DNA of 64,000 nt, from NCBI GenBank assembly GCA_963082975.1, contig OY720345.1:15464491-15528490 (forward strand), read 5' to 3'. The notes below the pieces were generated by a model. It was given only the letters and a program-made list of their open reading frames with translations. It had not been told where the DNA came from and made no database searches. The position numbers and the translations under genes are program-made. Position 1 is the first letter of the stretch, and each line of letters begins with the position of its first letter. This DNA is from Labia minor. Its lineage: Eukaryota > Arthropoda > Insecta > Dermaptera > Spongiphoridae. Positions 3,157-60,040 of the stretch are shown here, in pieces.

Positions 3157-3571
3157 ACTAGCTCGTTAGAGATAGTATTGCGATCACGAAAATTTTCGAT
3201 GTCGAGATTTTGATGTTTTTATACGTTTTTAAGGTCCCTGAGTCATTTTCACTGTATGTGTGTGTGTGTAGACAAGATTATGCAAAAACGGACGGTAAAA
3301 ATAAAGATAGATGTTTGATAGAGTTTCACATGATTAAAAATTGTATAAAACTGCTATACATAGAATTTCAGCTTGATTGAATCGCTGAAAGTACCGCAAA
3401 TCACGCGCCAGAACGGGACGTTCATTAACAAAGAGCCAAACACGCGCTTGTTTAATAAATATTATTTATTAATTTTAATTAATAAATTCATTAATTAAAT
3501 TTAATTTAAATATAATATACGTTAATTAATCAAATTCAAATTTGCGAGATAGTCGAGTGGAGACACTCCAG
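3157..3571 (+). mobile_element. Family A HINE-like element (short copy)
   Basis: The 5' end ACTAGCTCGTTAGAGATAGT follows a T-run and is an imperfect palindrome. A TG microsatellite lies at about 3255-3270. The 3' end has CGAGATAGT (3545-3553), the inverted counterpart of the 5' motif, then the hairpin GAGTG-GAGA-CACTC and CCAG. The middle keeps the conserved stem-loop TTTCAGC...GCTGAAA and the GTTTAATAAATATTATTTATT block. It is internally deleted relative to the copies near 43397 and 53210. No open reading frame of note. Confidence 0.7.
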
Positions 3572-3929
3572 CATTTTTTCTTCTAAATATAAAGTGCCCG
3601 TAAAAATAAAAATATATGTTTGATAGTTTCTCACATGATTAAAAATTGGATAAAACTGCTATCTATAGAATTTCAGCTTGATTGAATCGCTGAAAGTACC
3701 GGAATTAATTTTTTAAATTTTGACTTCAAAATGAAAGTATTTACGTTGAAAAAATCAAAACAATGTTGGTATTATTACATGCCTTCTTATTACAATAAAA
3801 TGATACCAGTGAAAAAATTTTAAATCCTATCATCGGATAGAATAAAATTTTAATTAATTTTCTCAAAAATAGGAAAAAGCTTGATTATCCAAATCAAATT
3901 TGCGAGATAGTCGAGTTGAGATACTCCAG
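3572..3929 (+). repeat. Second family A 3' half in tandem
   Basis: Immediately follows the previous copy and repeats the 3' half: AAATAAAAATATATGTTTGA, the TTTCAGC...GCTGAAA stem-loop, a different AT-rich section ending in AAAAGCTTGATTATCC, then a diverged CGAGATAGT and hairpin ending CCAG at 3929. The alternative 3' section matches 22630-22879. It is therefore a tandem 3' end of a second subfamily. Confidence 0.6.
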
Positions 3930-10351: not shown

Positions 10352-10921
10352 CAGGGGTTGGACAAAAATATGGAAACACCTCGTGAAAAGCATGTTTGAA
10401 AAGAAAGAATGATTTTAATGAAATATGTAGGTGCCGCTGGCGTTTTTGACTACTGACGCCACCTATACAACTTCGTGAATGTGCTAAACAGTTCAGTTAT
10501 GTGAGGTTGTCATTGCATTATGTCAGAGTTAACAGACTTCGAACGTGGGCAAATTGTTGGAGCACGTATGGTAGGTGCTTCCGTAAGCAAGGTAGCCGAG
10601 GTGTGTTTAGTGTATCAAGAGGTACTGTTTCGAAGATTTATTCCGCATATTTGGAAAGCGGAAAAACATCATCTGCTAAATCACAGCGCGGACGAAAGTG
10701 TGTCCTGAGTGATCGTGACAGACGATCATTAAAGGTAATTGTGACGAAAAATAAGAAGACCACAACTGGAAAAGTTACTGCTGAAATGAATGTTGTGTTA
10801 CCGAACCCTGTGAGTATCAAAACAATTAGAAGGGAGCTTCATGAACAGGGAATTGCTGGCCGTGCTTAAGCAAAGAAACATGTTTTTTTAAAGGTGTTTC
10901 CATATTTTTGTCCAACCCCTG
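10352..10921 (+). mobile_element. Internally deleted Tc1-like element
   Basis: The two ends are 30-bp perfect inverted repeats (10352-10381 and 10892-10921) starting CAGGGGTTGGACAAAAATAT, flanked by TA on both sides (10350-10351, 10922-10923), as for Tc1/mariner insertions. Full Tc1 elements are about 1.3-1.7 kb; this one keeps the 5' part and then jumps to the right end. It probably arose by internal deletion and would need transposase in trans. The perfect TIRs suggest relatively recent activity. Confidence 0.9.
10520..10869 (+). pseudogene. Tc1-like transposase, N-terminal fragment with frameshift
   Basis: Starts MSELTDFERGQIVGARMVGA, the first helix-turn-helix of Tc1 transposases. After a frameshift it continues VSRGTVSKIYSAYLESGKTS and SIKTIRRELHEQGIAGR, the second helix-turn-helix and linker. 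The protein stops at 10869, before the DDE catalytic domain, none of which is present. The relic could at most bind the terminal repeats; no catalysis is possible. It is wholly contained in the 570-bp element. Confidence 0.85.
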
Positions 10922-21180: not shown

Positions 21181-22175
21181 TATATATATATATATATATA
21201 TATGTCTATTTTTAAGTAGGTATCAATACTCTATTTAAAAATTCAACACCTTTCTTTAACTTCCATCATGAGCCACTTTCATCCAATTTCAATCTTCTTT
21301 TAATTCTCTCATATCATCTACCTTTATATTATCGTTACCACTGATTGTTTCCCAAATGATTTCACGGTAAAAAATCTTCTTTTTCGCCTGTTTGGATATT
21401 CCTAGAAGTCATGCAATTTCTTTTCATGTGATCTCCAGCATATTTAATAATTTTCTAGTATTTTATTTCATTAATAGTTAATGTAAATATTACATTATAT
21501 ACCTAAAATAGGGCATTTACAATGTCAATTCTTTTATACAGTGATTTATTTATTATTATTTTATTCATTTAAGAAGGGAGCGCATTCACAAAAATATAAT
21601 TGATTAATATATTATATCATATAATTTTTTTTATGTAAAAATTTAAAATGTTTTATATGAATTTCATTATATAATAATATTAATGTATTTCTAATTAATT
21701 TGAGATAAAATAACTGAGCATGTTGATTTTACAAATTTACATTTTTATGATATTTGGTCCATTTGATAAAAATTCTTATTTGAAATTTAAAAAATAGTCT
21801 TAAAGATAATAAGATTAAATTATTTGCCATATTTTTTTTTAATAAAATTGATAAATATTTTTCTCAATTTCGCGGAAGACAAGTTAACAACGACTACTCT
21901 AATAAGTAAATTTTAAAAGCATGTAGAATTAATATCGAAAATTATACAAGAAAATTTCTGGTGAAATAAGTAAATCAATTACAACCAAATTATAATGTTA
22001 AGCTAAAATTTTAATAAAAACGATGATGTTAGTTTTTATTATCAACTAAAATAAATAATAAAAGCAAAAGCATGAATATTTCATAAAGTATAGTAATAAT
22101 ATCTATCTAAAATTTGTTAAAGAAAATAATATAAATTAATTATCAACATTTTAAAATTGTAAATTTTAATATTTC
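21181..22175. other. AT-rich DNA without recognisable features
   Basis: Long A/T tracts; no element ends or credible frame seen. Confidence 0.45.
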
Positions 22176-22879
22176 GCAAGACAAGATTTAAGCTAGTAAT
22201 AATGAAATTTGGTACACGGGCATTATTCAAAATCCGGAATTTTCTATCAACTTTTGAGAAATGCAGCTCATCCGGAAGAGGACCATTGCCTACCACGTTT
22301 TCATTTTTTTCATCTAAACTGACCGTAATAATAAAGATATATGTTTAATAGTTTTTTACACGATTAAAAATTATATAAAACTGCTATATATAGAATTTCA
22401 GTTTGATTGAATCGCTAAAAGTACCGGAATTAATTTTTTAACACTGCAAAACTGCTAGATATAGAATTTCAGCTTGATTGAATTGCTGAACGTACCGGAA
22501 TTCATTTTTAAAAACGGTGACTGCAAATCACGCACCAGCACGTGACGTGGTGCCATCAACAAAGAGCCAAACACGCGCTGGTTTAATAAATATTATTTAT
22601 TAATTTTATTTTATAATTTATTTAATTAATTAATTTAAATTTTTTAAATTTTTAACTTTTGACTTAAAAATGAAGGTAAAAGTTGTGTTTAGGTTGAAAA
22701 AAATCAAAACAATGTTGATATTATTTGATTGCCTTCTTATTTCGATAAAATGTTATCAGTGACAATTATGTTAAAAACCTATGATCGGATAGAATAAAAT
22801 TTTAATTAAATTTCAATTATAGTAAAAAGCTTGATTATCCAATTCAAATTTGCGAGATAGTCGAGTGGAGACACTCCAG
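22176..22879 (+). mobile_element. Family A HINE-like element, 5'-truncated, with internal duplication
   Basis: Begins in the GCAAGACAAGATT region just past the missing microsatellite. Includes the TTCAATTTGG-type block, TCAACTTTTGAGAAATG and GACCGTAATAATAAAGATAT. The stem-loop region TAGAATTTCAG...GATTGAAT occurs twice (22389 and 22461), a local duplication. The 3' half is the alternative version (GGATAGAATAAAATTTTAAT, AAAAGCTTGATTATCC) and ends with CGAGATAGT plus the perfect hairpin GAGTGGAGACACTC and CCAG at 22879. Confidence 0.7.
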
Positions 22880-23877
22880 ATTTTTTTTTTGTTATATATT
22901 TTAAATAAAATAAATAAACTTTTTTCCCTAACTTTCTCTTTCCAGTTTATTCTAATTCGATTTCATGTACAAAATCTTTTAAATTTTATATTTACATTAA
23001 AATTTATTTGTGTCATCCTCTTTGAATAATTATTTAACTCGGTGGCACTAATTAAAGCATGAACTTTTGGGCGACAACAACAATATTTCTTCAATTGTCC
23101 CGATTCAGTTGCAATTCCATCCAATTATTATTATTATTATATTAAATGAGTGCGGAGGAAGGAATTGGTTTCAAAATACTTTTATTATTATAATGAAAAC
23201 AAAAAATTTTATTTATGAAAAAAAAAAAAATTATTTTTAATTTAACTTTTTTATTTATTTTAAATTAATTTTTTTTTTATTTATTTTCTTATATTTCAAT
23301 GATTTTATTTACGTATAAATATTAAAGATATTATTAATGCATGCATTTATTTTTATAAGAATTTTTAGGTATTTTTTATAATATGAAGTGATTATGAAAA
23401 CAGGACGGTATTTTTTCACTGCTGCATTGGTCACTTCTGCGCTAGAATAACGAGAGTAAATGAGTTTTCTGCTCGGTTGCTACCTCCATGTTCCGTTGGC
23501 AATAGACCTCTTCTGGCGCCTATAGCATCACATGATTACTCCCCATAAGAAAAGCGCTCCAAATGGGTTCTGCACTGCGTCACTCACCGAGTAAATGAGT
23601 TTTTGGCGTTGGGGGCGTGTATTGGGGGAAGGTGGAGGGAGGGGGGGAGAGCCGTTTGCCGACGACGTCGACGACGACGACGGACGGGCTACGCGATAGA
23701 ACTGTGCGAAAGAGAGAGAGAAACATACAGACAGCTTTTTTTTTTTTTATTTTTTTTTTTTTTTTTTTTACTTTTTGTGTTTTTTCTCTCCCTCTCTCTC
23801 TACCAAACATATTGTGCATCATACAAATCATAAAATCACCACCAACTCTTATTATTTTACAGGTTAATTTTGGGAAT

Positions 23878-24067: not shown

Positions 24068-24810
24068 GATCTATTTCCAATTGTATATTAAAAATAAAAT
24101 CAAACATCTCTATTATCTTATTTATCTGTTAAATGTAAATTTCTATATAATATGCATATAAGCACAATCCTTATCCCTTTCTTGCTGTGCCCCTAAGAAG
24201 ATGGGCTCTCTATTCATTAACTTTAATGAAATAAATAAAATCTGGAGTGCCTCAACACGACTATCCCGCATATTTTAATTGGATTAATTAACATATATTA
24301 GATTTAAATTTAAAACCTTGATTTTTAAGATAAAATTTAAAAATTTAAAAAATTAATTCGATCTATTTCCAATTGTAAATTAAAAATAAAATCAAACATC
24401 TCTGTTACCTTATTTATCTGTTAATAGTAAATTTCTATCTAAAATGCATATAAGAACAATCATTATGCCCAAAGAAGAAGGGCGCTCTATTCATTGACTT
24501 TAATGAAATAAAAAAATCTGCAGTGTCTCCACTCGACTAACTCGCAAATTAGAATTGGGGGATTAATTAACATATATTAAATTTAAATTTAAAACCTTGA
24601 TTTCTAAAGTAAAATTTAAAAATTTAAAAAATTAATTCGATCTATTTCCAATTGTATATTAAAAATAAAATCAAACTTCTCTATTACTTTATTTATCTGT
24701 TAATGTAAATGTCTATATAATATGCATATAAGAACACTCCTTATCCCTTTCTTGCTGTGCCCCTAAGAAGAAGGGCTATCTATTCATTGACTTTAATGAA
24801 ATAAAAAAAT
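24068..24810 (-). repeat. Tandem array of family A 3' ends
   Basis: Three copies of a block GATCTATTTCCAATTG at 24068, 24360 and 24639 alternate with family A 3' ends (CTGGAG-type termini at 24242 and 24518, joining the one at 24811). Spacing is 276-293 bp. Each unit carries ATGCATATAAG, a CTCTATTCATT section and a degraded hairpin plus subterminal motif. The array lies directly outside the 3' end of the next copy, in the same orientation. Confidence 0.7.
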
Positions 24811-25318
24811 CTGGAGTGACTCCAATCGACTAACTCGCAAATTAGAATTGGATTAATTAACATATATACTTATATTATATTTAAATTAAACTTAATTAAA
24901 TTAAATTAATTAATTAATCAAAAATTTAAATTTACACAGTATAGTATTGTTACTCAATTACATTATAATTAATTAACATATATTAAATTTAAATTTAAAA
25001 CCTTGGTTTTTATGGTAAAATTTAAAAATTTTAAAATCAATTCGCGTGTTTGACTCTTTGTTGATGAAACTACGCCACGTGTTGGTGCGTGATTGGCAGT
25101 CAACGTGTTAAAAAATTTAAAATTTAAAGTTTTAAGGAAAAAAATGAAACCGTGGTAGGTAATGGTCCTCTTCCGAAAAGTTATATGTATATTTAGATAT
25201 ACAGACATTTTTTTCAACCTTAGTGAAAATGATTCAGGAACCTTCAAAACGTATAAAAACATCAAAATCTCGAACTCGAAAATTTTCGTGATCGCAATAC
25301 TATCTCTGGCGAGAAAGT
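24811..25318 (-). mobile_element. Family A HINE-like element, subfamily 2
   Basis: 3' end CTGGAGTGACTCCAATCGAC on the low-coordinate side and 5' end at 25318 (ACTATCTCTGGCGAGAAAGT as read on plus, preceded on minus by a T-run). It lacks most of the microsatellite and centre. It shares the AAATTTAAAACCTTG section with 37488-38066, defining a subfamily. The 3' side is extended by the tandem units described above. Confidence 0.65.
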
Positions 25319-25597
25319 AAAAATGGATATGAAAATGTATAAATACGAATGATAGATGAGTGACACTAATGGCCTGCTAGCTGCTGTTGATGTGTCCTTA
25401 AATTCACAATAATAATAATATTAATAATTATAATAATAATAAGCCTTATTTTTTATAAAAGTTTTCCAAAATCATAGACTCACAATTATTTAATCTAATT
25501 TAATTGTGATAATTCATCTTATCCAAGTTTCTCTATATTTATTTATTTATTTTTTTTAAATTAATATTTATTTTTTTATCGATCTATATAAATCGAA

Positions 25598-26183
25598 TTA
25601 AGAGATAGTACTGCGATCACAAAAATTTTCGATGTTGAGATTTTGATGTTTTTATACGTTTTGAAGGTTCCTGAATCATTTTCACTAAGGTTGAGAAAAA
25701 TGTCTGTGTGTGTGTATGTATGTAGGCAAGATTACGCAAAAATGGTTTGAGCTAGAATGATGCAATTTGGTACATGAGCATTATTCAAAATTCATAGTTT
25801 TCTATCAACTTTTGAGAAATGTAGCTCAACCGGAAGAGGGTCATTACCTACAACGTTTGGATTTTTTTTTCTTCTAAAGTTCTAAATAAAGATATATGTT
25901 TGATAATTTTTCACATAATTAAAAATTGTATAAAACTGCTATATATAGAATTTCAGCTTGATTGAATTGCTGAAAGTACCAGAATTAATTTTTTAACACT
26001 GCAAATCTCACGCGCCAAAACGTAACGTGGTGCCATTCACAAAAAGCCAAACCCGCGTTGGTTTAATAAATATTATTTATTAATTTTAATTTATAATTTA
26101 ATTAATTTAATTTAATTTAAATATAATATATTTGTTAATTAATCCAATTCAAATTGCAAGATAGTCGAGTGGAGACACTCCAG
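25598..26183 (+). mobile_element. Family A HINE-like element
   Basis: The 5' palindrome is half lost (AAGAGATAGTACTGCGATCA); a TG run lies at about 25703-25718. The conserved AAGATTACGCAAAAATGGTT block, TCAACTTTTGAGAAATGTAG and the internal stem-loop follow. The 3' end has GCAAGATAGT, the hairpin GAGTGGAGACACTC and CCAG at 26183. It is oriented 5'-to-5' against the previous copy, separated by about 280 bp. Confidence 0.7.
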
Positions 26184-27114
26184 ATTTTTTAAAAAATTTT
26201 TTCAATGTTCAATTATTTAATAAGTCTATGAATCTTGATCAAATTTTCAAATAAGGGATGATTATTTTATTGTCTTTACATATAAAAATAATCAATGATG
26301 AATTTTTAGAGAAATACATTTAAAAAAAAATAACTTTCAAATTGGATCTGATATTATAATCAAGAATATTTTATTATTATTATAGTAGTAGTAGTGGTTT
26401 TCCAATTGTTTTTTTTTAATAAGCCATACCTTCTTAAATTAACATACTTAATATAAATATTATTTAAAATAAAATTAATATTACATTAGATTCATAATTA
26501 TTATTAATAAAAATACACATGATACTTTATTAGTTTTACTATGAATATTAAAAACTAATATTCACAAACTTTTAATAGTAGTATTATTACTTGTCATTGA
26601 AAATTGTGACAAGTAAAAAAGAAAAAAGAAAATGCATTTCATGTTGCTCATATAGATTCAGAGGCATGACTCGTAATAAGAAAATTACGAGTTTTTAAGA
26701 AAAAAAAAAAAATAAAAAAAAAAAGTTTATTACCAACCTTCTTCCTTCGTTATTTATGCTTAGTGAGAATGGATAGTTTCAACCAACAATGCAGTAAATG
26801 GGTCGTTAATGAAGTTGTAGTACAATCATAAGCAGATGATGAGGAAAAAAGTAAAAAAAAGAGTGGCACTTTAATTATCTACATACCAAAGAATTTATTT
26901 AATCAAATCGGAAATTATAAGATATTTTTATTACAAATTAATTAAATGAAATTTGTGTGTATGTGTGTGAGTGTGAGTGTATGTAAATTTGTTTCAAACA
27001 TTAACAGAAAAATAATTCATCAATTACTATACTTTTATGAGAATAAATAAATTAATAATTAATAAATATAATTTATTTTTTTATCTTTTGTAAAAGTTTT
27101 AGTTCAATAAGTTG
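26184..27114. other. AT-rich DNA with TG and A-rich simple repeats
   Basis: Poly-A near 26700-26726, TG/GA-rich run near 26955-26985. A short more complex segment near 26740-26860 has no recognised content. Confidence 0.4.
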
Positions 27115-27688
27115 ACCTGTGGCCAGGTACAGAACGAACCGACGATTTGAAATAAATTACTTTCCAGCTAAAGAAACAATTTCAAATAATTTAAATGTAT
27201 CTATTAATGCAATAAAAAAACAGATATGGATATAACATAAATATTTTTAATTTTATTTTATTTATAATATATAAGGAGGCGCTGGCTGTGACGTCATCAA
27301 GGACTTGGTGACGTCATATAATTTTAAGTTAAGAAAAAACTAATGAAGATGATTTTTCCCGAGAATAAAACCAAAATAAAGTGCTTGATTCGGGGAGATA
27401 TGTAAAAAAATGTCTTCATCTGAAATTTGGTGTGAAAATAAATCCAAAAGTTGATCAATTCATCATACTGATGCATTAAGTAAATATACCAAATTTCATC
27501 AAAATCCGTTGAGCCGTTCAAGCTGAACACATCTATACAGACGGACGGATGGACAGACGGACGGACAGATATCATGCTAAAAATACTTTTTTCTGTTAAC
27601 AAAATGTATGATTCGTGGAGATATGTAAAAATCTCCACATTTAAAATTAGGTGTAAAAACAATACCTCCCTTACTATCGTCGGTCAGT
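27115..27688 (-). mobile_element. Family B HINE-like element, near full length
   Basis: The 3' end on the low side shows the hairpin ACCTG-TGGC-CAGGT (27115-27128, plus-strand reading) followed by GAACCGACGATTTGAAATAA. The 5' end is ATCGTCGGTCAGT at 27676-27688, next to a T-run on the minus strand. Inside are GACGTCATCAAGGACTTGGT, a run of cagacggacgga repeats (27537-27568) and the CTCCACATTTAAAATTAGGT block. This copy shows both ends of the family best. No coding capacity. Confidence 0.7.
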
Positions 27689-37487: not shown

Positions 37488-38066
37488 CTGGAGTGTCTCC
37501 ACTTGACTATCTCGCAAATTTGAATTGGATTAATTAACAAATATTATATTTAAATTAATTTTAATTAATTAAATTATGAATTAATTATAATTAAATTGGA
37601 TTGATTAATTAATTAATTTAAAAAAAATGTAAATTTACAGTATAATATTGTTATTAAATTAAATTAATTAATTAACATATATTAAATTTAAATTTAAAAC
37701 CTTTCCCCCCTTCTCATTTTTAAGTCAAAATTTAAAAATTTAAAAAATTAATTCACGTGATTGACTTTTTGTTGATGACACCACGTCACGAATTGGCGCG
37801 TGATTGGCAGTCAGCATTGATTTTTTTCAACGTAAATAAAACCTTTACCTTCATTTTTAAGTAAAAATTTAAAAAAAATTAATAACAGTACTTTTAGCGA
37901 TTCAATCAGGTTGAAATTCTAAATATAGCAGTTTTATACAATTTTTAATCATGTGATAAACTATCAAACATTTTACGGTGAGTTTTGAATAATGCCCGTG
38001 TACCAAATTTAATTATTCTAGCTCAAACTGTTTTTGCGTAATCTTATCTACATACATACATACTAC
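37488..38066 (-). mobile_element. Family A HINE-like element, subfamily 2, 5'-truncated
   Basis: The 3' end CTGGAGTGTCTCCACTTGAC and subterminal ACTATCTCGCAAATT are well kept at 37488-37520. Shares CAGTATAATATTGTTATTAA and AAATTTAAAACCTT with 24811-25318. Continues to the microsatellite (CATACATACATA, about 38050-38063) and stops there; the 5' terminal part is absent, at the boundary with the element at 38071. Confidence 0.65.
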
Positions 38067-41934: not shown

Positions 41935-43396
41935 TAATATTACTATAACTATAACTATAAATATAATAATAATAAGAGTAATAATAAAAAAAATCGTTGA
42001 AATCACCTCTTAACCATTCAAAACACACACAATTATGCCTATTATTTAACAACACACAAACTATACAATCATTACAAAAATTCATCTCTTTTTATATAAA
42101 TAATATTTTTGAAAAATAAATAATTTAACATATTATTTTTTTTATTTTTTAGTGAAATTACATTCAATTACATATTAAAATTAAATTACCAAATTTAATT
42201 CAAGATAAAAATAAAATCATAATTTAAAATATATAATTCATTATTTTTCTAATTACTATGATAAACAATTAATTTAAGAAAAAAAAATGTGATAATTTTA
42301 GTTAAAAGAGGATGGTAATTAATTATTTATTTAACAAACCTATCACTACAACCCTTTTTTTCTCTCAATCTTAAATAATCGTTTTCGTTCCATTCATTTC
42401 CTTTTTCTTTCATCCATTGGGTGTGTTTTTATGGAGAGAACCCTTAAAATTGAGCAACCAACCAACCAACCACCAACACACCTTCCCCATCATCCACCTA
42501 CACACTATAAACTCAGAACAGACATAAAAAAAACACATCATATTTTTGTGTATTTTAAGCGACCTTAAAATTTCAATTTTTATCTAAATTTCACGCACCA
42601 CAAAATTCATAAAATAATGAATAGTGTTAAAGTTAAATTTATATATACATATATATTCTCTTCCCAATATTTATTATTTATTAGTCAGTTGTGTTTTTTA
42701 GGGGGAGAACGGAAATAACCTGAAAAGTCTTTTTTTGGTAATTTAAGGAAAAAAGAAAAAAAAAACATCACAAAACCATGAAATTATTAAAATGAGATAG
42801 ACAAAAAAGAGTAATAATGATAATAATAATAACAGTGATTCTTTTTAATTTTTAATTTTTTTTATTTTAAAAGCACTAGGAATTCAGAGCAAAGGAAAGT
42901 AAGTAATGCAATCATAATAAAACACTAACTCTACACTTAGATTTTAATTTTCCTTTACGTTTTAAGTACCCATTAATATATTTCCGACATTTGTTATGAT
43001 AACTTATGGGAGGGGGAAATGCTCTGGTATCAATATATTATTTTGATTAAATTATAATTTTAATGTTAGATTATAAATGACCTAAAAAACAGTAAAAGGG
43101 TTTTTTATGTAAAATCTAACGTTCTGTTCATCTAAATTATTACTCTATTGAATATTTTGTGGAAAAAAAACAATTATTTTATTAAATATTTTCTTTATCT
43201 TTAATATTTTTATTTTATTAATTTAATTTAATTATTATTAATAATATTTAAGAAAAAAAAAATAATTTCGTAAATTCTTAAATATAATATAGTATAATAA
43301 AATATAATATAGTATAATATGTTAATATATTAAATACTCGTATAATTCTGGCCTAACGAATTCTAAAATAATATACCTCCCTAAACAAAAAATTAG
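41935..43396. other. AT-rich DNA with a CAAC-rich stretch (42440-42500)
   Basis: (CCAA)n near 42457-42473 and CACACC-type sequence resemble the island at 14400. Otherwise AT-rich; no gene seen. Confidence 0.4.
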
Positions 43397-43980
43397 CTGG
43401 AGTGTCTCCACTCGACTATCTCGCAATTTGAATTGGATTAAATAACATAATATATTATATTTAAATTAAATTTAATAAATTATAAATAATAAATATTAAA
43501 CCACCGCATGTTTGACTTTTTGTTGTTTGCACCACGTCACGTGTTGGTGCGTGAGATTTGCAGTGTTAAAAAATTAATTCTGGTAATTTCAGCGAATCAA
43601 TCAAGCTGAAATTCTATATATAGCAGTTTTATACAATTATTAATCATGTGAAAAATTATCAAACCTATATCTTTATTTTTACGGTCACTTTAGAGGAAAA
43701 AAAATCAAAACGTTGTAGGTAATGACCCTCTTCCGGTTGAGCTACATTTCTTAAAAGTTGATAAAAAACTACGAATTTTGAATAATGCTCATGTACCAAA
43801 TTTTATCATTCTAGCTCAAACCGTTTTTGCGTAATCTTGGTTACATACACACACACACACACACAGACATTTTTCTCAACCTTAGTGAAAATGATTCAGG
43901 AACCTTTAAAACGTATAAAAACATCAAAATCTCAACATCGAAAATTTTCGTGATCGCAATACTATCTCTTACGAGATAGT
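43397..43980 (-). mobile_element. Family A HINE-like element, full length
   Basis: The 3' end CTGGAGTGTCTCCACTCGAC and subterminal ACTATCTCG are intact. The 5' end is the perfect 20-base palindrome ACTATCTCTTACGAGATAGT (43961-43980). In order from 3': AT-rich section, CACCACGTCACGTGTTGG, the stem-loop TTTCAGC...GCTGAAA (one base changed), AACGTTGTAGGTAATGACCC, GTTTTTGCGTAATCTTGG, (CA)n 43847-43865 and the 5' block. Best single example of the family, about 584 bp. Confidence 0.8.
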
Positions 43981-44974: not shown

Positions 44975-45573
44975 ACTAGTAGAGATAGTATTGTGATCAC
45001 AAAAATTTTGGATATCCAGATTTTGATGTTTTTATACGTTTTGAAGTTTCCTCAATCATTTTCACTAAGATTGAGAAAAATGTCTATGTGTGTGCGTGTG
45101 TATGTGTGTATGTATGTAGACAAGATTACGCAAAAACGGTTTGAGCTAGAATAATGAAATTTGGTATTCGGGAATTATTCAAAATTCGTAGTTTTCTATC
45201 AACTTTTGAGAAATGTAGCTCAACCGGAAGTGGGCCATTACCTTCAACGTTTTGAATTTTTTCCCTCTAAAGTGACCGTAAAAATAAAGATATATGTTTG
45301 ATAATTTTTTACATGATTAAAAATTGTATAAAACTGCTATATATAGAATTTCAGTCTGATTGAATCTCTGAAAGTACCGGAATTAATTTTTTAACACTGC
45401 AAATCACGCACCAACACGTGACGTGATGCCATCATTAAATAGCCAAACTTGCGCTGATTTAATAAATATTATTTATTGATTTTAATTTATAATTAATAAA
45501 ATTTAATTTAAATATAATATATGTTAATTAACCCAATTGAAATTTGCGAGATAGTCGAGTGGAGATACTCCAG
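44975..45573 (+). mobile_element. Family A HINE-like element, near full length
   Basis: The 5' palindrome is shortened (ACTAGTAGAGATAGT) after a T-run. TG/TATG microsatellite 45087-45118, CAAGATTACGCAAAAACGGT, the stem-loop, CACGCACCAACACGTGACGT, AT-rich section, CGAGATAGT and hairpin GAGTGGAGATACTC with CCAG at 45573. Non-coding. Confidence 0.75.
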
Positions 45574-46554
45574 CTTATTTTTATATTTTTTTGAAATCTT
45601 TTTATCCTATTAATTATGATTAATATTATTATATTATATTATTATGATTATTATTATGATTAATCGATTGGGATATTATTTTATATAATTTTAAAATATA
45701 TCAACTCTCTTTTTATTCCCAAAATAGATTTACGTTTTGCCAATGAATTTTTCGATTTTAACTAAATTTCATTGAATTAATTCGAGTAGTAATGGATCTA
45801 AGAAATATCATTCATTATCAGATAACTACGTTAAAAATTTTAACATGTATTCTTTGATGGTTATAATTATTACACTAAAATCATATGAATCTATTAAAAC
45901 TGTTCATTTTTCAGAATTTTAATTTCGTTATAAAGTTGTTATACCTTGTGTGACTATTCTCTGAGTAATTCCAGAACTGTACTCGAAATATACTTGTAAT
46001 CTTTATTATGCTAATAATAATGTTTCTTTTTCTATTTGAAGATACTATTTTTTTAATTCATTATAAATATATTAAATAAATTATCTCTTTCTTTGAATTA
46101 AGGTTGAATTTGATTGTAGGTATGTATGACCTTACAGTTACTGCCACTTATTTTCTTTCCTTTACCCCTTCTCATGGCCCATTCAGATAACTTTGATAGT
46201 CTAAAGTCAATTTTTGAGTAAGAATTGCTTCCAGGGACGTTAAATGATTCTTTTTTTTTATAAAGTGATGAGCAATTTTGTGAATGGCGAGGAACGAACG
46301 GAAAATGGATGGCTGACTGGCCAGGGGCAATATGATTATTATGTTGTTGATAAAGGGTCGCGGTTCGATTGCTTTAGCAATTTCTATTACCATCGAGGTT
46401 CTAGAAAAGGTGAAAAGAAGGACGGACAGATGTATACACTTCCGTAAGACATCGATCATCATTGCAAGAGAGAGAAAGAGAGGGAGAGAAAGGGTAAAAA
46501 CGGCAAAAGCACCGAACATGAGACACAGAACCTGTTATTAGACCAAAATGCATC

Positions 46555-50717: not shown

Positions 50718-50729
50718 AAACTAAATAAG

Positions 50730-51704
50730 CAGGAGTGTCTCCACTCGATTATCGCGCAATTCGAATTAGATTAAATAACATATATTATATTTAAATTAAA
50801 TTTAATAAATTAAATTATAAATTAAAATTAATAAATAATATTTATTAAACCAGCGCACGTTTGGCTCTTTATTGATGGCACCACGTCACGTGTTCGCGCG
50901 TGAGATTTGCAGTGTTAAAAAATCAATTTTGGTACTTTCAACGATTCAATCAAGTTGAAATTCTATAAATATCAGTTTTATACAATTTTTAATCATGTGA
51001 AAAACTATCAAACATATATCTTTTTTTACGGTCACTTTAGAGCAGGGGTGGGCAACCCGCGGCCCGCGGGCCAACTTCGGCCCGCGTGCACATAAAATGC
51101 GGCCCGCGAACATATGTAAAATTTATATGGTGGCCGGCTCTTATTCAAATGTTTTAATGATATTTATCAAAATATTAAGTTATTTATAATGACATTCATT
51201 CCTAAAGTAAATAACATATCAAAAACATCATTTTTTGTCAATTGAGGTTATTTTATAATAAATTTTCTCTTCACCGATTTCTGAAAACATAATTTTCATT
51301 TACTTACAAAACCAATGTTAATGGCACGCTTAAGTTTGGTTGTTTTCAATTTTGGCCCGCACTATAAAAAGGTTGCTCATCCCTGCTTTAGAGGAAAAAA
51401 AAATCAAAACGTGTTAAGAAATGACCCTCTTCCGATTGAGCTACATTTCTCAAAAGCTGATATAATACTACGAATTTTGAATAATGCCCGTATACCAAAT
51501 TGCATTATTCAAGCTAAAACCGTTTTTGCGTAATCTTGTCTACATAAACACATACATACACACACAAAGACACACACACGCACACATACAGACATTTTTT
51601 CAATCTTAGTGAAAATGACTCAGGGACCTTCAAAACGTATAAAAACATCAAAATCTCGACACCGAAAATTTTCGTGATCGCAATACTATCTCTGACGAGA
51701 TTAC
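50730..51704 (-). mobile_element. Family A HINE-like element interrupted by a hAT element
   Basis: 3' end CAGGAGTGTCTCCACTCGAT at 50730; 5' end ACTATCTCTGACGAGATTACT near 51685-51704. All internal landmarks are present (CACCACGTCACGTGTTCGCG, stem-loop TTTCAAC...GTTGAAA with compensating change, TTTTTGCGTAATCTTGTCTA, CA-rich microsatellite 51548-51590). The 343-bp hAT element plus its 8-bp duplication sits between CTTTAGAG and GGAAAAAAA. Without it the copy is about 620 bp. Confidence 0.8.
51043..51385. mobile_element. Non-autonomous hAT element (343 bp)
   Basis: The ends CAGGGGTGGGCAACC and GGTTGCTCATCCCTG are inverted repeats. Perfect 8-bp duplications CTTTAGAG lie at 51035-51042 and 51386-51393. 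Just inside, GCGGCCCGCGGGCCAA and repeated GGCCCGC on both sides make the ends strikingly GC-rich. No transposase. It is younger than the family A copy that holds it. Confidence 0.9.
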
Positions 51705-52612: not shown

Positions 52613-53209
52613 GTGAAATTACGTTACCAACAGAATACGATAACAAAACACAGAAGTGTTATGAATGCAACAAGCCTAAAACAGCAAAATAACTTTCTTT
52701 AATATGACAATCAAGTCATATAGTCAGTCATTTTTTTAATATTACCTTATTCATTTGATATTAGTATGATACTTGAAAAAAATTTTATTGTTTTGTTTAT
52801 ATAATTATATTTAAGTGGTGTAATATGTAATATTTTATTTTAAATAATAGAATTTATTTATATTTCTATAATTTATTTATATTTTAAAAAATTATTAATG
52901 TACCTTCATCAATAGGAATCTCAATTAGGATGGTCCAATATAAAAAATTATAAATTTAAATTTAAAAATTGAAATAATATATCACAATTGCAAATTAATA
53001 AATGTAGATATATATATAAAGATATAATATTTTCTAAGTTAATATTTATAATACATTAAACTTTTATATTGTAGATTCTTAAGTTTTATTAAATTTTAAT
53101 TAAAAAATTATTTATAATTTTATAAATTTAAATTCCAGATTTATAAAAAATAATATATAATATATTAGATTTGAATATAAATAATTTCTTTAATTTAAAA
53201 ATAAATTAG
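52613..53209. other. AT-rich DNA without recognisable features
   Basis: No element ends or credible frames. Confidence 0.45.
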
Positions 53210-53798
53210 CTGGAGTGTCTCCACTCGACTATCTCGCAATTTGAATTGGATTAAATAACATAATATATTATATTTAAATTAAATTTAATTAATTATAAAT
53301 AATAAATATTAAACCAGCGCATGTTTGGCTTTTTGTTGATGGCACCACGTCACGTGTTGGCGCGTGAGATTTGCAGTATTAAAAAATTAATTATGGTAAT
53401 TTCAACTAATCAATCAAGCTGAAATTATATATATATATATAGCAGTTTTATACAATTATTAATGTGAAAAATTATCAAACATATATCTTTATTTTTACGG
53501 TCACTTTAGAGGAAAAAAAATCAAAACGTTGTAAGTAATGACCCTCTTCCGGTTGAGCTACATTTCTCAAAAGTTGATAGAAAACTACGAATTTTGAATA
53601 ATGCTCATGTACCAAATTTCATCATTCTAGCTCAAACCGTTTTTCCGTAATCTTGGTTACATACATACACACACACACACACAGACATTTTTCTCAACCT
53701 TAGTGAAAATGATTCAGGAACCTTCAAAACGTATAAAAACATCAAAATCTCAACATTCAAAATTTTCGTGATCGCAATTCTATCTCTTACGAGATAGT
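53210..53798 (-). mobile_element. Family A HINE-like element, full length
   Basis: Very similar to 43397-43980, with the same flank AATTAG before CTGGAGTGTCTCC. The 5' palindrome TATCTCTTACGAGATAGT ends at 53798, next to a T-run on the minus strand. Differs by a TA expansion next to the stem-loop and a small deletion. Internal (CA)n 53668-53682. Non-coding. Confidence 0.8.
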
Positions 53799-58666: not shown

Positions 58667-59479
58667 CTATTTTTTAAACAGTGGACGAAGTTTCTTGAGG
58701 AGTTCCGCTATTCTATGTTAGTTTGTAATTCACAACAGAATAATGTTTGTTTTCAGAATTGAAAACTAAATAAAAATTATTTATGTACGTTGTCTTCGAC
58801 AAATTAAGTAACTTTGGATTACTATTAATAAATATTTTGTAATGTTAACGTTTGATTGTTCCATTCTCATAATTAGGAAGACTAAATTGAAAACCTTGTA
58901 TTCTTTTGAGGCAAATTATTACATTTCGAAAGGGCAGGTTATTTTTAAATTTATTTGATATTTGTATTTGCAGACAAATTTAGACAAATAAGTGTTCGGG
59001 CTGTTTAAGAAATTTTATTCTGGTGAAGTCAATAATTATGAAGGTCAGGGATGGCGAACCTTTTTGAATGTCCTTACCACAAAGTTATAAAAAGTCATTA
59101 TGAAGTAACTAAGGTGGCACATTAAAATTGGTTACACTATCGAGAAAAAAACTACCTTTTACCCTCAAAGACACAAAAATGACACAAAGACAATAAAATG
59201 AAAAACGGAAACGTAGAAAAAAAATGCAACTTGTCACTTCATATATTTGTCCTTTACTTGAAATGTTGCTTGGTGAAATTATATAAAGATATCTAATAAC
59301 TATTAAACTAGAAATAATTGTAAATATATAAGTTATGGAGATAGAGTCGGAGTTAGGAACACTGGAATATTAATATTAAAACGGGATGGATGAGATCCCT
59401 AAGTAAGTCAGTAAATGTATCAGTAAATATCACTTTTTTATCAAAATAAAAAAAAAAAAATTAAGTTAATATATAATTA
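58667..59479. other. AT-rich DNA with a partial hAT-like end at 59046
   Basis: CAGGGATGGCGAACCTTTTT at 59046 followed by AAGGTGGCACATTAAAA near 59110 resembles one end of a hAT element. I found no matching right end or 8-bp duplication, so only a fragment is suggested. Otherwise unremarkable. Confidence 0.3.
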
Positions 59480-60040
59480 CTGGAGTATCTCCATTCGACT
59501 ATCTCGCAATTTGAATTGGATTAAATAACATAATATATCATATTTAAATTAATTATAAATTAAAATTAATAAATAATATTTATTAAACCAGCGCGTGTTT
59601 GACTTTTTGTTGATGGCACCATGTCACGTGCTGGCGCGTAATTTGCAATGTTAAAAAATTAATTCCGGTATTTTCAGCGATTCAGCAGTTTTATACAATT
59701 TTTAATCATGTGGAAAACTATCAAACCTATATCTTTATTTTTACGGTCAGTTTAGAGGGGAAAAAAATGAAAACGTGGTAGGTAATGACCCTCTTCCGGT
59801 TGAGCTACATTTCTTAAAAGTTGTTAGAAAATTAAGAATTTTGAATAATGCCCATGTACCAAATTTCATGATTCTAGCTCAAACCGTTTTTGCATAATCT
59901 TGTCTACATACATACACACACACACACAGAGACATTTGTTCTAATCCTTAGTGAAAATGACTCAGGACCTTCAAAACGTATAGAAACATCAAAATCTCGA
60001 CATCGACAATTTTCGTGATTGCAATACTAACTCGAGATAT
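59480..60040 (-). mobile_element. Family A HINE-like element
   Basis: 3' end CTGGAGTATCTCCATTCGAC and ACTATCTCGCAATTTG; 5' end degraded (CAATACTAACTCGAGATATT). Landmarks present: GGCACCATGTCACGTGCTGG, ACGTGGTAGGTAATGACCCT, TTTTTGCATAATCTTGTC and (CA)n 59913-59928. The internal stem-loop has been lost by a deletion (GCGATTCAGCAGTTTTATAC). Confidence 0.75.

Follow-up and report, generated by a model that had tools for sequence, protein, structure and literature searches.

Repeat copies in the window

The window, that is, the whole 64-kb stretch of DNA that was analysed (C2:15464491-15528490 of a 604-Mb assembly), contains copies of a repeat, called here family A, whose layout comprises a 9-base 5′ motif with an adjacent inverted copy, a TG microsatellite, the inverted motif near the 3′ end and a 5-bp hairpin. 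The copy first noted at 43397-43980 reads 5′ to 3′ on the minus strand and, at full length, occupies 43393..43980 (copy A; 96.8% identity to the consensus over 1-597; 5′ flank TTATT). In this copy, and on the same strand, the 5′ subterminal inverted repeat (subTIR), ACTATCTCG, lies at 43972..43980 and forms, with its adjacent inverted copy, the hairpin ACTATCTC-GTAA-GAGATAGT at 43961..43980. A TG/CA microsatellite is found at 43847..43865 (approximate limits), and the 3′ subTIR, CGAGATAGT, at 43415..43423, is followed by the hairpin GAGTG-GAGA-CACTC at 43400..43413. The terminal 5′ motif, the subterminal inverted 3′ motif and the TG microsatellite that an earlier note on this DNA had described were thus all found, with subTIRs of 9 bases, and the hairpin that it had placed after the inverted motif was recovered 12 times in the window when up to two mismatches to GAGTGGAGACACTC were accepted (0.04 expected). 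The exact ACTATCTCG motif has 10 matches in the window, compared with 0.15 expected.

A BLAST search with a 584-base query, combined with inspection of the ends, revealed 13 copies or fragments of family A with a 3′ end in the window. Besides copy A, the minus strand carries the full-length copy B (53206..53798, 95.5% identity to the consensus) and the nearly full-length copy C, with a degraded 5′ motif (59477..60040, approximate limits; 59480-60033 aligned, 86.8%). On the plus strand, copy D (25599..26183, 91% to the consensus) has lost its 5′ subTIR, and that of copy E (44981..45577, 89%) is degraded. Copies F, G and H are on the minus strand: F (50728..51701) is split by a 343-base insertion, G (37488..38063) is degraded and has no 5′ end, and H (24811..25318) is degraded with both ends recognisable. 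On the plus strand, copy J1 (3157..3571), which has an internal deletion, abuts the 5′ side of fragment J2 (3572..3929), and J2 has an alternative 3′ region in common with copy K (22168..22879), a copy without the 5′ end. This alternative region precedes the common 3′ end in both K (22660-22880) and J2 (3720-3929), which seem to represent a subfamily with an exchanged 3′ interior. The two remaining fragments, I2 (24518..24628) and I1 (24242..24341), are 3′ ends on the minus strand that, together with H, belong to a local tandem duplication of the 3′ end and its downstream flank in three units (24150-25320). As this flank is common to the three 3′ ends (24242, 24518 and 24811), they look like a single insertion that was locally duplicated; counted as one, they leave about 11 copies, in agreement with the approximately 11 copies or fragments in 64 kb of the earlier note.

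The aligned stretches of the window copies range from 97% down to less than 75% identity and, consequently, family A was probably active over some time. None of the six ORFs of at least 120 aa in the window overlaps 43393-43980, and Rfam gave no match in the window at the gathering threshold. An ORF of 122 aa at 10501-10869 resembles, by eye, the N-terminus of a Tc1/mariner-type transposase. The insertion in copy F, at 51043-51385, is bounded by imperfect ends (CAGGGATGAGCAACC / GGTTGCCCACCCCTG), shows a duplication of 8 bases (CTCTAAAG) and resembles a hAT-type MITE.

Ends of the element and insertion sites

A search of the genome with the family A query produced 6938 first-look candidates, of which 40 were scored; these gave 40 long matches with 95-100% identity, 37 of them over query positions 1-584 and the other three over 1-580 or 1-582, along with 3 short pieces. 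The analysis of the ends is based on the 39 long matches that remain when copy A itself is left out, each taken with 500-base flanks; as this sample is best-scoring and not random, it is biased towards young copies. The 39 copies are 586-607 bases long, with a mean identity of 0.983 to their own consensus and of 0.970 to each other. The element measures approximately 595 bases and its consensus 597. Density spot checks at eight arbitrary places, 20 kb in all, found one copy, those in the Rep loci (105 kb) found none, and of 14 flanks taken from seven copies (20.7 kb), 4 had matches; these samples are too small for an estimate of copy number.

The exact ACTATCTCG 5′ end is present in 34 of the 39 copies, and the exact 27-base 3′ end, which includes CGAGATAGT, in 32. 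After CCAG, where the earlier note had placed the 3′ end, C and T follow in all 39 copies and the next two positions are A in 35 and 36 of them; the three positions past CTAA are T in 38, 37 and 34 copies, with the frequency decaying beyond. The 3′ end must, therefore, be moved four bases further, to CCAGCTAA, which is followed by Ts, and copy A extends to 43393. With this end, the 3′ subTIR sits 22 bases from the 3′ terminus, and the two ends of the element are asymmetric.

The “20-base palindrome” of the earlier note is indeed an inverted repeat, but it consists of an 8-bp stem with a 4-base loop; its folding energy is -5.9 kcal/mol (z -4.03), with 1 of 200 shuffles at least as stable. The 3′ hairpin folded alone reaches -3.9 kcal/mol (z -1.54), a stability equalled or exceeded in 16 of 200 shuffles, and is not unusually stable. 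The ends proposed here lie slightly outside those of the earlier note, by CTAA and some Ts.

The 5′ motif is preceded by Ts. Position -5 is T in all 39 copies and position -6 in 11, and the T-run before ACTATC has a length of 5 in 22 copies, 6 in six, 7 in four, 2 in six and 0 in one, the last being L011, whose end is damaged. The T-run to the right of the element is 0 to 9 bases long, and its correlation with the left one is -0.19. The element itself probably includes some of the Ts that precede the 5′ motif; in our reading, up to four would be its own, with entry at T|TTT. Mite and Culex elements have also been described as having a variable number of Ts (PMC4067079).

When the element is taken to start at TTTT, the flanks repeat over 3 bases in 3 of the 39 copies and over at least 4 bases in none. 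With a start at ACTATC, flank repeats of 3, 4, 5 and 6 bases are seen in 26, 17, 11 and 3 copies, respectively, those of 3 to 5 bases being T-only. As the flanks lie in T-runs, such repeats cannot settle a short T duplication; the flanks of the 39 copies would fit insertion into T-runs, and the duplication of a few Ts remains compatible with them. Two nested copies add a little in this respect. L042 is inserted in the 5′ T-run of a second family copy, which fits T-rich insertion, and L010, which lies inside another family copy at GAT(G)TTTTTATACG, fits with one base of difference, as its empty form needs one base fewer than, or one base different from, the consensus. T-only repeats aside, these asymmetric ends and flanks show no sign of the extended symmetric TIRs and regular target duplication that the earlier note had named as contrary to its proposal. 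Membership in two other classes was rejected: the 5′ TC and the A/T insertion of canonical Helitrons were not found in the 39 copies, nor were the symmetric TIRs and regular target duplication of TIR transposons and MITEs, a T or TT duplication alone being still compatible.

An autonomous element with the same ends

A search for the Helitron Rep family gave 104 matches from 126 candidates and revealed two kinds of Rep, one with RGLPH, as in canonical Helitrons, and one with RGSPH, which is described as the Helentron signature in PMC4067079. Among 30 Rep loci that were kept (L049-L078, approximately 3.5 kb each, read on the plus strand), 12 have RGLPH, one has RGSPH and 17 have neither; additionally, four larger loci (L079-L082) all contain RGSPH frames. 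One of the latter, L082, has the exact 3′ end of family A 1.25 kb past its ORF, and the adjoining piece, L083, supplies the 5′ end, so that the element starts with ACTATCTCGCCAGAGATAGT after AATTTTT and finishes with CCAGCTAA before TTTT. Read from these two pieces, the element comprises 12,169 bases on the minus strand (G000:C1:47862609-47874777). The earlier note had suggested a search for an autonomous Helentron with the ends of family A, and this Rep/helicase element of the same genome corresponds to it.

The family A consensus matches this element over 1-485 at 90.7% and, in an overlapping second piece, over 276-512 at 93.2%; 513-556 have no clear counterpart, and the last 41 bases are 100% identical. 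The first 60 bases agree at 58 of 60 positions, and the last 60 at 48 of 60, exactly 80%. Most of the family A body, approximately 500 bases, matches the 5′ non-coding leader of the large element, and family A, therefore, resembles this leader joined to the last bases of that element. The loop of the 5′ hairpin, GCCA in the large element, is also found in 2 of the 39 sampled copies (L029 and L046). The subTIRs of both elements are identical, but the 9-base repeat of family A is short of the family rule of at least 11 bp of identical subTIRs given for Helentrons in PMC4067079.

A search of the genome with the whole protein, in which 22 of 1835 candidates were scored, found one intact coding copy. 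There are broken copies, with pieces 77-98% identical, at C1:44694181-44700650, C60:546-3554 and C10:37189978-37193101; the search also matched more distant relatives of 31-60% identity, some with long open frames. The first of these broken copies likewise has CCAGCTAA at its end, next to another flank, and is, consequently, a second witness for the 3′ end; this end was looked for, and not found, in the broken copy at C10:37189978-37193101.

The protein of the autonomous element and its C-terminal domain

The ORF of the 12.2-kb element encodes 2,181 aa without an internal stop. Its product contains DUF6570 (340-470), Helitron_like_N (650-776, 84.6 bits), with the Rep signature RGSPHEH in the translation, and a PIF1 helicase (1249-1468, 109.8 bits). 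An AP-endonuclease-like stretch matches Exo_endo_phos_2 (PF14529) with 22.8 bits, below the Pfam cut-off of 27.4; NINS, ETL, GDFN (GDFNIN in the translation), ID and H are visible in it, and we take them to be the AP-endonuclease motifs. A relative with 62% identity (P0001) carries PF14529, and a PDB search with the endonuclease stretch gave no match at E 1. Among the domain matches of this 2,181-aa product there is none to RPA; the element also has shorter ORFs, of 100-167 aa.

The 222 C-terminal residues (L082:1895-2560, minus strand) match Peptidase_C48 (PF02902) with 19.6 bits, just below the cut-off of 20.7, and the domain is, therefore, called here only “C48-like”; there is also a weak match to SENP8 (2bkq, E 0.0044). 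In an alignment with five relatives, the catalytic order His-Trp, Asp, Gln, Cys-Gly is kept in the protein, and one of the relatives (P0090) has Asn at the aligned Asp column, followed by an Asp three positions later. Residues 1960-2181, used as a query in a protein search, gave nothing at E 0.001 among 185 candidates, and single-sequence structure prediction of the 222 residues gave no usable fold (mean pLDDT 30.3).

Relatives were sought with residues 640-1720; 225 matched among 7982 scored, and 120 are listed. PF02902 is carried by 6 of the 120 relatives listed. Domains of other kinds, OTU (PF02338), PF04843 and PF00443, also occur among them. Over these residues, the nearest relatives among the matches listed come from a spider, Araneus ventricosus (62%), and a snail, Physella acuta (61%), a distribution that would fit horizontal transfer.

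The described Helentrons with Rep, helicase and AP endonuclease (PMC4067079, PMC9741609) share the RGSPHEH, PIF1 helicase and endonuclease motifs with this protein, but some of them carry OTU or VTD deubiquitinases, whereas it has a Ulp1/C48-like C-terminus instead. Among the papers listed, mostly from outside subscription journals, none joins Helentrons or Helitrons with Ulp1 or C48, to judge by the titles and the beginnings of the abstracts. Our guess is that the C-terminal domain protects or processes the transposase or its partners. We also put forward, tentatively and with somewhat more doubt than conviction, that Helentrons have repeatedly gained unrelated ubiquitin or ubiquitin-like proteases at their C-terminus and that, here, the Ulp1/C48-like one serves a single intact master that supports thousands of non-autonomous elements in trans. 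We consider this fusion the most interesting part of the finding. If the domain is an active protease, it would bring another class beside those already described for Helentrons and would suggest that these elements repeatedly need to interfere with ubiquitin-like modification.

Origin and movement of family A

Family A is very probably a non-autonomous Helentron-associated element (HINE), non-coding, that keeps the ends of the 12.2-kb autonomous Helentron of the same genome. The earlier note had proposed a Helentron-associated, DINE-1-like class, an assignment borne out by the structure and by the existence in the genome of an autonomous element with the same two ends. In addition to the structure and the shared ends, this reading is based on the intact ORF of the 12.2-kb element and on the T-rich flanks. 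This element is likely the autonomous partner of the HINE, to whose movement it is linked only by the shared ends. Some observations weigh against this reading, namely the short subTIRs, the ordinary stability of the 3′ hairpin, the endonuclease match below the cut-off, the run of just two Ts before the 5′ motif in six of the 39 copies and the single intact coding copy among the 22 of 1835 candidates scored. By analogy with the class, the Rep of the partner would nick at the 5′ T/ACTATCTCG junction and its helicase would peel off one strand; transfer would stop after the 3′ subTIR, the hairpin and CAGCTAA, and the strand would be inserted into a T-run that the AP-endonuclease domain may have opened, with no duplication beyond Ts.

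Similar elements are known. For instance, DINE-1/INE-1 of Drosophila (PMC2374699) is described, like family A, with a 5′ subTIR adjoined by a partial inverted copy, a microsatellite within its 5′ half, a stem-loop after the 3′ subTIR, no ORF, insertion at T-rich sites and a high copy number. By contrast, its subTIR has 13 bases and another sequence (9 bases in family A), its 3′ stem has 7-11 bp (5 in family A) and its microsatellite is GTCY instead of TG. The HINEs of the mite Metaseiulus and of Culex (PMC4067079) likewise have subTIRs, a 3′ palindrome (5-10 bp) and variable terminal Ts, and derive by deletion from a Helentron of their own genome; in the mite, however, the subTIRs have 12-15 bases, compared with 9, and the 3′ one lies 38-60 bases from the 3′ end, compared with 22. 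Regarding the family itself, the 27-base 3′ end has no exact match in a viral contigs database, and a 24-base part of it has none in a genome contigs database that perhaps leaves out records of this or near genomes. The three exact end sequences are absent from the main text of the literature searched, a search with most subscription journals outside its scope. The element class is well known, and family A itself is probably new.

The alternative that survives best, which we nevertheless consider unlikely, accepts family A as a true HINE and attributes its movement to a Helentron or Helitron2-type element other than the 12.2-kb one. Further RGSPH-type elements with intact Rep/helicase ORFs are present (L079 and L081), and the candidates scored include just one intact copy of the partner; however, no matching ends were found in L079, L080, L081 and L084-L086, pieces that need not reach the ends of their elements, and the last 41 bases of the partner are those of the HINE consensus. 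A non-autonomous canonical Helitron (5′ TC, 3′ CTRR, A/T insertion), moved by the RGLPH-type Helitrons of the genome, is very improbable. The CTAA at the 3′ end would fit CTRR, with a hairpin just inside, and RGLPH Reps occur in 12 of the 30 loci, some with open frames of 1652-2039 aa, but the 5′ end is T(n)ACTATC and not TC, the flanks are T-runs, there are subterminal inverted repeats, and the Rep of the element that shares both ends is of the RGSPH type; additionally, the family ends are present in none of the 30 Rep loci (L049-L078), whose pieces of approximately 3.5 kb are too short for the ends of most elements. It is hardly credible that family A is a MITE derived from a cut-and-paste transposon, with ACTATCTCG as TIRs and a T or TT duplication: short inverted repeats, a high copy number, Ts at both sides and, with an ACTATC start, 3-base T-only repeats at 26 of 39 copies would suit it, and the same ambiguity was noted for DINE-1 in PMC2374699, but 22 bases separate the 3′ repeat from the end, the two ends are not symmetric, the T-runs on either side disagree in length, and the coding partner is a Rep/helicase element.

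With family A as a HINE, what was a guess at the level of motifs becomes a pair, formed by a HINE and an autonomous Helentron that share one genome, and its ends are well defined. The imbalance between the 6938 first-look HINE candidates and the one intact coding copy among those scored would make it a useful case of how cheaply a rolling-circle master supports its parasites.

Other rolling-circle elements

Several further elements were observed. L079 and L081 are RGSPH-type, Helitron2-like elements with ORFs of 1785 and 1754 aa, respectively, that contain intact Rep/helicase; these ORFs gave no endonuclease match. A Helitron found in seven places on five chromosomes (L055-L061), all with the same Rep score and with frames open over 1537-1652 aa, is probably a recently active one of canonical type (RGLPH was read in L055-L057). 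Finally, a second repeat family is present in the window at 27109-27401 and 1759-2108 and, outside it, at loci L037, L073 and L014. Its 3′ end comprises the hairpin GACCTG-GCCA-CAGGTC, followed by AACTTATT, and it is probably another HINE family; at L037, a family A copy lies directly behind a repeat of this second family.
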